Assembly (NCBI RefSeq): GCF_000876015.1
Contig: NZ_BBQM01000007.1
Location: 1-64,000 of the forward strand
Length of the DNA: 64,000 nt
DNA from: Cupriavidus basilensis
GTDB taxonomy: Bacteria; Pseudomonadota; Gammaproteobacteria; Burkholderiales; Burkholderiaceae
Direction of reading: 5' to 3'
Numbering within the stretch: the stretch's first letter is position 1; each line of letters opens with the position of its first letter. Made by a program: the position numbers and the translations under genes. Shown here piece by piece: positions 13,992 to 16,108 of the stretch. A model generated the notes under the pieces. It ran no database searches and was not told the DNA's origin. It saw only the letters and a program-made list of their open reading frames with translations.

Positions 13992-14036
13992 AATCTCGGC
14001 ATTCCTGATCACGAGAGGCCGCCCCGGCGCGCCACC

Positions 14037-14726
14037 ATGCCCGAGCACATCGACCCTGCCATGACCTCCGAAGCGATCGCCGACGACATCGTCGCGGCCA
14101 TCGTTTCGCACCGGCTGCCGCCCGGCACCAAGCTGCGCGAGGAGGCGCTGGCCAGCGTCTACCGCGTCAGCCGCACCAAGGTGCGCGCCGCGCTGCTGAT
14201 GCTGTCCAAGGACAAGGTCATCCAGATCGTGCCGGACAAGGGCGCCTTCGTGGCCAAGCCCAGCGCGGAGGAAGCGCGCGAGGTCTTCGCGGTGCGCCGC
14301 ATCCTGGAGGCGGCGCTGGCGCGCGAATTCGTGGCGCGCGCGGGCGCGGCCGACTACAAGCGCATCGACCGCCATCTGGCCGCCGAGAAAAAGGCGCTGG
14401 CCGGCAGCGACGCGCAGCTGCGCACGCGCCTGCTGGGCGACTTCCACATCCTGCTGGCCGAGGTGGTCGGCAACGGCGTGCTGACCGGCATGCTGCAGGA
14501 GCTGTCGATGCGCAGCGCCGTGATCACCATGCTCTACCAGTCGCGCCGCGATGCCGCCTGCTCGTCCGACGAGCACCGCGAGTTCATCGAGGCCGCGCGC
14601 GCCGGCGACGCCGAGCGCGCGGTGACGCTGATGGTGGCGCATCTGAACCACGTCGAGGCGGCCCTGCATTTCGAGGAGCTGCCCGCCGCGCGCGGCAAGG
14701 ACCTGGTCACGGCGCTGCTGGCCTGA
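14037..14726 (+). CDS. GntR-family regulator with FCD ligand domain
   Basis: The 229-residue repressor has an N-terminal winged helix (about residues 12-76, PPGTKLREEALASVYRVSRT) and a C-terminal all-helical FCD domain (about 85-210) with the metal-binding Asp/His pattern: D in LGDFH, H in VAHLNH and DEH. FCD regulators sense organic acids. Its position directly after dctA, and the palindrome over the dctA promoter, suggest it controls that promoter and thereby its own synthesis. Confidence 0.9.
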   Translation: MPEHIDPAMTSEAIADDIVAAIVSHRLPPGTKLREEALASVYRVSRTKVRAALLMLSKDKVIQIVPDKGAFVAKPSAEEAREVFAVRRILEAALAREFVARAGAADYKRIDRHLAAEKKALAGSDAQLRTRLLGDFHILLAEVVGNGVLTGMLQELSMRSAVITMLYQSRRDAACSSDEHREFIEAARAGDAERAVTLMVAHLNHVEAALHFEELPAARGKDLVTALLA

Positions 14727-14742
14727 GCGGCGCGCCGGCCTT

Positions 14743-14785
14743 TTGACCGAGGTCAATGCGCGCGGGGCCGGACTGCCCCAATATT
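14743..14785 (+). promoter_or_regulatory. FNR/Anr-type box and class II promoter
   Basis: TTGAC-CGAG-GTCAA (14743-14756) is a perfect palindrome of the FNR/Anr/Crp half-site type (TTGAY-N4-RTCAA). A -10-like AATATT lies at 14780-14785. With transcription starting near 14791 the box is centred at -41.5, the usual position for FNR-activated promoters. No protein gene follows for over 500 bases; a structured RNA candidate does. Confidence 0.6.
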
Positions 14786-14790
14786 CAAAC

Positions 14791-14881
14791 CGTCATGAAG
14801 CTGCGGGGGCGCGCTTCATGACACTGGGCGGTCCCCCTGTGGACCCCCGCCCGCACGCCGGCCTGGGTGCGGGCTTTTTCG
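14791..14881 (+). ncRNA. Candidate FNR-controlled small RNA (about 90 nt)
   Basis: Starting at the predicted +1 is a 10-base-pair hairpin, GTCATGAAGC (14792-14801) with GCTTCATGAC (14813-14822). A short hairpin GGTCC-CCCTGT-GGACC (14830-14845) follows, and then a terminator hairpin with a T-run. C-rich single-stranded segments, such as CCCCC next to the middle hairpin, could pair with Shine-Dalgarno sequences, as seen in many regulatory RNAs. No coding frame with a ribosome-binding site fits. Together with the FNR-type promoter this looks like an oxygen-responsive sRNA. No known family is recognised by eye. Confidence 0.55.
14849..14879 (+). terminator. Intrinsic terminator of the sRNA candidate
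   Basis: GCCCGCAC / GTGCGGGC forms a perfect 8-base stem with a 10-base loop, directly followed by five T. It can also stop read-through from gntR. Confidence 0.8.
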
Positions 14882-15331
14882 TTTACGCGGCCGGTTTTGC
14901 GCGGCGCGTCCCGCTCCGCTCCCTGTCCCGCTCCCTGCCCTGCTCTCCATTCTTTCCCCAGGTTTACCCCTGCCCGCTTGTTGCGCGCCATGCGCACCCC
15001 TGTTGCCTGAGATGCGCGTGATCGAATCGCGGCATCGGAGTAGCATGTCGGAGGCCCGGACCAGGCGCCGGCCGGCCCCGCCCGGCACCACAGAAAAAAG
15101 CAGAAGACAGGAGACAGACATGACCCGTTCAGCCTCGCCCGCCGCGCACCGCCGCGGCTGAAGCGGCGGCCCGCCCATCCGGCGCCGGGCCTCACCCGAT
15201 TTCCACCAGTCCGACCCGCGACGGCGGCCGCAAGCCCGGCGCCGCCCCGGCCGGCGCGCGGCATCCGTCCGCCGCGCCCGGCAGGCCGGCCCGACCCGTT
15301 TCTCTTCGTTCCAACCGACAAGGATGCCAGC
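14882..15331. other. Intergenic region with a 13-codon mini-ORF
   Basis: No full gene is visible. At 15120-15161 a very short frame (MTRSASPAAHRRG, stop) follows an unusually good ribosome-binding site ACAGGAGACAGAC, the best in this neighbourhood. It may be a leader peptide for the crotonase gene 170 bases downstream or the remnant of a lost gene start. The rest is GC-rich, with no T-run hairpin. Confidence 0.35.
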
Positions 15332-16108
15332 ATGACCTCTCCCGTGCTCTACCACGCCGCCGAAGGCGTCGCCACCATCACCCTGAACCGCCCCGACGTG
15401 CTCAACGCGCTCAACGCCGAACTGTTGGCCGAGCTGCGCGCCGCGGTGGAGCGCGCCGCGCAGGACGACGCCGTGCGCGCGCTGGTGCTCACCGGCAACG
15501 GCCGCGGCTTCTGCGCCGGCGCCGACCTGGCCGGGCGCCAGGGCGAGATGAAGGATTCCGGCACGCTGCTGCGCGAGCGCTACCACCCGATCATCCTGGC
15601 GCTGCGCAGCATGCCCAAGCCCGTCGTCACCTCGGTCAACGGCGTGGCCGCCGGCGCCGGCATGAGCCTGGCGCTGGCCGGCGACGTGGTGCTGGCCGGC
15701 CGCTCGGCCTCGTTCCTGCAGGCGTTCTCCAAGATCGGCCTGGTGCCCGACGCCGGCAGCACCTACTTCCTGCCGCGCTACGCCGGCGAGATGCGCGCCC
15801 GCGCGCTGGCCATCCTGGCCGAGAAGATCGACGCCGAGGAAGCGCACCGCATCGGCCTGGTGTGGAAGGTCCACGCGGACGACGCGCTGGCCGCCGAAAC
15901 CGCCAGGCTCGCCGCACACCTCGCGCAGATGCCCACGTTCGCCTACGGCCTCATCAAGGAAGCGCTCAACGCCAGCTTCGACAGCAACCTGCCCGACCAG
16001 CTCGAGCGCGAAGCCTCGCTGCAGACGCGCGCCTCGGGCAGCCAGGACTTCAAGGAGGGCGTGGCGGCGTTCCTGGAAAAGCGCAAGCCGCAGTTCAAGG
16101 GGCGTTGA
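15332..16108 (+). CDS. Enoyl-CoA hydratase/isomerase (PaaG-like)
   Basis: A 258-residue crotonase-fold enzyme. The oxyanion hole is formed by GRGFCAGADL (about residues 57-66) and NGVAAGAGMSLALAGD (about 102-117). At the catalytic loop, FLQAFSKIGLVPDAGST carries an Asp instead of the usual second Glu. The combination resembles PaaG, the ring-opening isomerase of phenylacetyl-CoA degradation, more than a standard hydratase. No other paa genes are in the window, so the pathway is open. AAGGA lies 8 bases before the ATG. Confidence 0.83.
   Translation: MTSPVLYHAAEGVATITLNRPDVLNALNAELLAELRAAVERAAQDDAVRALVLTGNGRGFCAGADLAGRQGEMKDSGTLLRERYHPIILALRSMPKPVVTSVNGVAAGAGMSLALAGDVVLAGRSASFLQAFSKIGLVPDAGSTYFLPRYAGEMRARALAILAEKIDAEEAHRIGLVWKVHADDALAAETARLAAHLAQMPTFAYGLIKEALNASFDSNLPDQLEREASLQTRASGSQDFKEGVAAFLEKRKPQFKGR

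Follow-up and report, generated by a model that had tools for sequence, protein, structure and literature searches.

What is encoded at positions 14743-14881 of the 64,000-nucleotide stretch of Cupriavidus basilensis DNA analysed here (the window), where a preliminary description made from the letters alone had seen a candidate small RNA under oxygen control? Our analysis supports the FNR-linked small RNA interpretation, and we consider it probable (about 0.82) that the interval contains the promoter and the gene of a trans-acting small RNA of 88-91 nt that is activated by FNR. Promoter layout, conservation, structure and the presence of Fnr genes are read from sequence, and from them we infer expression, the oxygen response, chaperone binding, base pairing and targets.

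All elements lie on the forward strand. The interval opens with an FNR/CRP-type box, TTGACCGAGGTCAA (14743-14756), whose centre is 42.5 nt before hairpin 1 and 29.5 nt before the -10 element, the class II position. Transcription would start at 14791/14792, as predicted from the spacing to the box and to the -10 element, and hairpin 1 begins at 14792. This first hairpin (14792-14822), recognised by folding and by comparison of copies, pairs the arms GTCATGAAGC and GCTTCATGAC in a 10-bp stem, followed by one bulged base, a 3-bp GCG/CGC helix and a GGGG loop; its tip, GCGGGGGCGC (14803-14812), is near-invariant across the three types of copy described below. Next come hairpin 2 (14826-14848), which is C-rich in the window copy, and an intrinsic terminator (14849-14879) with a GC-rich stem (14849-14874) and a run of five T (14875-14879). 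The segment 14791-14881 has a minimum free energy of -55.5 kcal/mol (z = -4.84), a stability that none of 200 shuffles reached, and 14792-14879 one of -55.7 kcal/mol (z = -4.32). The TTGAC-N4-GTCAA box of the preliminary description is indeed present, and so are its 10-bp hairpin at the predicted +1, its second, C-rich hairpin and its terminator, all of them folded. That no coding frame interrupts them is true of real genes but not of mechanical open reading frames, which cross the site and include an 8-codon ATG...TGA inside hairpin 1.

The box is the sole match to TTGAYN4RTCAA in the window, where 0.05 would be expected from shuffled sequence (5 of 100 shuffles had one). A consensus scan of 14000-15500 returned no sigma-70 promoter, and the -10 element, CAATAT at 14779-14784, is a weak hexamer with a poor match (3 of 6 positions). 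We place it from its spacing and from the promoters of type B copies, in which A at hairpin -12 and T at hairpin -8 are invariant (29 of 29 distinct promoters). A -10 element at a suitable distance had been proposed before and is retained at its conserved spacing; the hexamer had been read as AATATT and is corrected here. Chance does not account for the arrangement of box, hairpin and terminator, since relatives have it too, including the box.

When a 156-bp stretch was compared by BLAST with 60 relatives, 32 matched, mostly through the -10 element and hairpin 1 only, and a second copy was found in the same genome, on the minus strand of contig C46. A covariance model built from 25 copies detected the family in 59 of 60 Cupriavidus genomes and in all 54 good assemblies, the single miss being a genome that is 54% complete. 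Seven genomes have one match, 23 have two, 25 have three, three have four and one has five, so that 48 of the 60 carry two or three. These copies fall into three paralogous types, A, B (which includes the window copy) and C, with the three-hairpin layout and the tip in common. Type A follows the order GTCATGGAGATGCGGGGGCGCTCTTCATGAC-TTGTCTACCCGTTTCC-loop-GGAAAC-terminator; across 19 rows only its loop and terminator vary much. Type B keeps hairpin 1, which is common to A and B, and has a diverged middle, and type C has a shortened variant of hairpin 1. The genome under study has one type A and one type B copy and no type C copy at the model threshold. In multi-replicon assemblies (G008, G034, G014), type C lies on contig C2 and the main A and B copies on C1. 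Further copies resembling type A are carried by G008, on a replicon of 361 kb, and by C. necator UYPR2.512, on its pSym plasmid. The linker has diverged in L089 and L090 (G008, contig C3) and in L115 (pSym), and an FNR box is present in L089 and L090. On G008 contig C3, about 2.5 kb separate one type A-like copy from a phasin-family match.

Covariance across the Burkholderiaceae at large had been suggested as a check, and at that breadth the idea did not hold, as the family appears to be restricted to Cupriavidus (20 of the 62 weakly matching genomes outside it were inspected). These 62 other genomes of the family Burkholderiaceae had R1 matches at E <= 0.001 with a best score of 38.6 bits, and in the 20 inspected, through one locus per genome (L068-L087), neither hairpin 1 nor a TTGAN6TCAA within 75 nt upstream was present. 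Searched across 369 genomes of the class, the exact pattern was found in the C. basilensis genome only (1 of 369). Among named genomes, 58 of 79 stretches came from Cupriavidus or from names that we take as misnamed members ('Ralstonia sp. 25mfcol4.1', 'Burkholderiaceae bacterium 16'), and the other 21 belonged to scattered taxa with unrelated downstream sequence. In another genus of the family, weak model matches (L071-L073, L076, L078, L079, L081-L083) mark a different conserved hairpin, GGCGCATCTCCTGTCGCCATGCGTTCCCCGT...CGCATGGGAC, with a terminator and without an FNR box, possibly an unrelated small RNA.

Conservation of the box had been named beforehand as a point on which the proposal would stand or fall. 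Copies were collected by hairpin and covariance model, and the box played no part in their selection. In all 30 of the first loci, a set from which the hairpin expression used there left out L017, the centre of a TTGAN6TCAA falls 41.5-43.5 nt before hairpin 1. In an enlarged, filtered set the box occupies the class II position, relative to the predicted start, in every copy of type A (54 of 54) and of type B (30 of 30). The filter dropped L138 (a false type B candidate inside a gene), copies near a locus end, and copies that lacked GCGGGGGCG followed by C or T or had fewer than seven consecutive stem pairs; among those dropped for stem pairs, L090 and L100 have the box and L017 has it with one mismatch. 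The TTGA and TCAA positions are 100% identical, and the flanks are mostly 27-77% identical, with single exceptions up to 96%. Type C carries a one-base variant of the box, TTAAYN4RTCAA, at the same place (9 of 9 copies, with TTGA in none of the 9), which suggests a different activator or a weaker dependence on Fnr. The -10 element of type C is better, TAGAAT (L091, L094, L097-L099, L101, L104, L106, L107).

Conservation extends to the RNA itself. The same three hairpins were obtained in 15 of 15 folded copies, chosen to represent all three types, and the sequence of hairpin 2 varies both between and within types with its stem retained (in this comparison the window row was cropped, and its hairpin 2 was taken from the fold). 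In an alignment of hairpin 1 with 16 distinct rows, 93% of cells are paired and nine cells, distributed over four pairs, have changes on both sides. No shuffle out of 500 attained the covariation score, which also exceeded that of every slid version; at least as many pairs with changes on both sides were seen in 39 of the 500 shuffles, and at least as many pair types in 250. Pairing is lost at two outer pairs in 4 of 16 rows, and at one inner pair in 6 of 16. Since the shuffle control keeps the relatedness among rows, and type C rows are imperfectly registered, we regard the covariation of hairpin 1 as moderate. The terminator stems covary more, although less so within type B. The compensatory changes in the stems that the preliminary description had asked for are thus most evident in the terminator, with hairpin 1 giving a moderate signal. 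The tip GCGGGGGCGC was found in 31 of 31 loci recovered by BLAST and in 16 of 17 copies recovered by the model, both sets being unselected for the motif; the exception, L089, ends in GCGT.

The conserved symmetry at the start site could also be read at the level of DNA, the inverted repeat GTCATGAAGC/GCTTCATGAC serving as an operator and forming no RNA hairpin, and it is indeed perfect over 10 bp of DNA (about +1 to +31), in agreement with such a reading. However, the commonest type A stem contains a G-U wobble (GU in 16 of 19 rows), by which the DNA symmetry is broken, the G-rich spacer is conserved as much as the arms or more, and hairpin 2, diverged with its stem kept, and the terminator follow in the folded copies. 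We find an operator extremely unlikely. A coding peptide within hairpin 1 (14795-14821; MKLRGRAS in the window, MEMRGRSS in type A) was considered and rejected: type C shifts the frame, and the third positions of CGG-GGG-CGC are changed in only 1 of 48 unselected copies (the list of 84 copies, filtered on the hairpin core, was excluded from this count).

A short structured RNA between two genes may also belong to either of them. In the window, the next gene downstream, an enoyl-CoA hydratase/isomerase (15332-16108, forward strand), begins about 450 nt after the terminator and is one of two enoyl-CoA hydratase genes that lie downstream of the RNA. Across the family, neighbours were taken from a simple coding-bias gene caller, which makes strand counts approximate. 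By these calls, the RNA and its downstream neighbour lie on opposite strands in 10 of 54 type A loci, 11 of 30 type B loci and all 9 type C loci; 10 type A, two type B and no type C loci have no downstream gene within the locus. Called frames that overlap the RNA itself (4 of 54, 1 of 30 and 0 of 9 for types A, B and C) we attribute to the gene caller. Pfam checks covered six opposite-strand calls, of which four are real and two, L176 and L119, are without support. Of the five that lie downstream, L117, L120, L127 and L137 were confirmed and L176 was not, the domains being LysR in the first three and peptidase M20 in L137. That the opposite-strand downstream genes are real in 4 of 5 checked cases argues against a leader. 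In the type B loci L117, L120 and L127, the RNA is followed by this opposite-strand LysR-family gene and not by enoyl-CoA hydratase genes.

The upstream side deserves separate attention. The GntR-family regulator gene with an FCD domain (14037-14726, forward strand), which adjoins a dicarboxylate-symporter gene, is on the same strand as the RNA, and the box starts 17 nt past its stop codon, so that a read-through RNA would share the terminator. The element could then be the conserved terminator or 3' untranslated region of the GntR gene, and the small RNA would arise by processing of the GntR mRNA. Gene calls place the closest upstream neighbour in the orientation of the RNA at 42 of 54 type A loci, 20 of 30 type B loci and 8 of 9 type C loci, and the type B share may be higher, as the opposite-strand call in L119, without Pfam support, is perhaps an antisense miscall. 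Yet a dedicated conserved promoter lies between gene and RNA, and type A copies with the same architecture are found elsewhere, next to clpB, a gene for a solute-binding protein or a ferritin-like gene in the loci checked. We therefore consider an origin in the GntR mRNA very unlikely, and a stand-alone small RNA gene with its own promoter remains our preferred reading.

Which protein would act at this promoter? The C. basilensis genome encodes a clear Fnr on contig C43 (257 bits against a cut-off of 228), with the CX2CX5C motif and an E..SR recognition helix, and a second Fnr-like protein on C44. In the genus, Fnr was found in 59 of 60 genomes at E <= 1e-40, and in 57 of 60 above the cut-off. 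Only G031 (91% complete, 5% contaminated) gave no match at 1e-40, and this genome also carries L017, the only type A or B box with a mismatch among the copies read. We take this as a hint of joint decay; it is one case and possibly reflects assembly quality. L017 also has a broken hairpin pair. DNR/NNR-type regulators can use FNR-type boxes, nearly the same site, and the main driver of the same small RNA gene might be another activator of the CRP/FNR family, for example a DNR/NNR protein that responds to NO, in which case the RNA would report denitrification and not oxygen. The genome encodes several further CRP/FNR helix-turn-helix proteins, and the TTAAYN4RTCAA of type C (9 of 9) suggests that at least one paralogue has a different or weaker activator. 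Against this, TTGA/TCAA is retained in the half-sites of types A and B, almost every genome of the genus has Fnr, and the genome without an Fnr match is the one with the sole mismatched A/B box, with the reservation just given. Another activator is in our view unlikely as the main driver, and Fnr is the favoured one.

The genome contains 27 TTGAYN4RTCAA sites in 7.8 Mb, two of them at its two copies of the RNA, compared with 10 for the reversed pattern, so part of the 27 may be chance. Fifteen of the sites were inspected and ten downstream frames scanned, of which eight have Pfam domains and two have none: a COX1-type oxidase subunit, a heavy-metal ATPase, a di-haem cytochrome c peroxidase and two universal stress proteins, which together we take to be genes expected of an Fnr regulon, and further a cytochrome b561, a haem-oxygenase-like protein and a fatty-acid desaturase. 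An FNR-type site on contig C44 (210.1-210.6 kb; L218/L256) precedes a weak phasin-family match (30 bits) by about 265 bp, a hint that oxygen may be linked to PHB granules.

With Fnr as activator, the following sequence of events can be proposed. As oxygen becomes scarce, Fnr carrying an intact iron-sulphur cluster would bind 14743-14756 and, from its class II position, would contact RNA polymerase and so offset the poor -10 element, allowing transcription from about 14791/14792 to the terminator. The GGGG-tipped 5' hairpin could be a module shared by the paralogues for stability, docking or common pairing, the diverged middle segment would pair with mRNAs specific to each paralogue, and the U-tailed terminator could bind an RNA chaperone such as Hfq.

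An RNA of this description would be FnrS-like in function and of a known functional kind; by Rfam and literature searches, the family appears to be new in sequence. The preliminary description had not recognised the sequence, and Rfam has no family at gathering threshold anywhere in the window and none at E <= 1 over the window copy. FnrS and PhrS, the two RNAs to which the organisation had been likened, are absent among the Rfam matches at E <= 1 in sets of 8 and 6 loci. PhrS contains a small ORF, whereas the Cupriavidus RNA has no conserved small ORF and no Rfam match to PhrS. The likeness to FnrS is that both are FNR-linked small RNAs, the oxygen response being a prediction here; they differ in that no sequence kinship was detected and the Cupriavidus RNA forms a multi-copy family in one genus only. 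NgncR_162/163 of Neisseria are closely alike. They are likewise paralogous small RNAs acting on metabolism in a betaproteobacterium, a parallel drawn by description only; the Cupriavidus types, unlike them, share mainly hairpin 1 and the terminator layout. FnrS of Escherichia coli is described as an FNR-controlled small RNA that is expressed anaerobically (PMC8139620, PMC5703892), and PhrS of Pseudomonas aeruginosa as a small RNA that acts by base pairing and requires the FNR-type regulator ANR for its expression (PMC5703892). No Fnr-linked small RNA of Cupriavidus is among the matches listed in PMC titles and abstract starts, a collection outside which subscription journals mostly lie, and this absence is weak evidence of novelty. 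A map of start sites in C. metallidurans CH34, from shaken cells exposed to copper, reports 35 orphan transcripts taken as non-coding, and 'Fnr' is absent from its main text (PMC7563307); members of the family described here may be among the 35.

One partial likeness to a known RNA concerns type A. Its 3' part matches the suhB/MmgR family (RF00519) at 33.6 bits in L064, 30.1 in L009 and 23.8 in L006, below the gathering threshold of 41, with CGUUUCC...ACUU and the terminator in common. No such match was found in the other type A copies tested (L005, L010, L015, L031, L118) or in the window copy. In comparison with suhB/MmgR of alphaproteobacteria, the matched part excludes hairpin 1 and the promoter logic differs, and we treat the resemblance of some type A copies to MmgR as a lead only. 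According to a 2021 review, MmgR restrains PHB accumulation in Sinorhizobium meliloti (PMC8401924).

For the question of targets, the preliminary description had suggested that C-rich loops could mask ribosome-binding sites, and for the window copy shuffling lends this no support. Nine RNA segments were paired with 268 start regions, taken from the retrieved loci, and duplex energies compared with 60 shuffles each. The window loop was equalled by 15 of 60 shuffles and the window hairpin-2 arm plus loop by 40, three other type B loops by 29, 52 and 28, the hairpin 1 tip by 28, and the type A linker, no better than shuffled, by 42 (44 with the hairpin-2 arm); the type C loop, which contains UCUUCC, paired weakly better than shuffled (3 of 60 as good). 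Generic anti-Shine-Dalgarno pairing was thus rejected, mean energies matching those of the shuffles, with type C a weak exception. The start regions had been chosen by a ribosome-site core, which biases 6-mer enrichments, and these were not used. The exact complement of the type A linker, GGGTAGACAA, occurs at four places in the genome, one of which is the RNA gene itself, and none of the other three is a convincing initiation region: L224 is inside a reading frame, L225 has no frame starting nearby, and at L227 the frames look, by reading, antisense to a gene start. Because of the sub-threshold resemblance to MmgR, phasin mRNAs were also tried, and nine phaP1-like start regions (L228-L236) gave duplexes of -12.5 to -18.4 kcal/mol, values that, lacking a background, we do not count as evidence.

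Cupriavidus is a model for the bioplastic PHB, for hydrogen oxidation and for metal resistance, and it often meets low oxygen. In a more ambitious reading, which we judge improbable, the siblings would be small RNAs jointly switched by Fnr, each combining the invariant GGGG-tipped 5' hairpin, as a module for docking or pairing common to all, with a target module of its own, and type A, whose 3' half would descend from, or have converged on, an RNA like MmgR, would tie oxygen limitation to PHB. The 2021 review regards the part played by riboregulation in C. necator PHB synthesis as undeciphered (PMC8401924). If the coupling were true, type A would link low oxygen to polyhydroxybutyrate storage in the model genus for this polymer. 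The near-invariant GCGGGGGCGC tip is an unexplained constraint in its own right, and a genus-wide, Fnr-linked RNA family, with short genes and defined promoters, would offer a concrete starting point for the riboregulation of these organisms.
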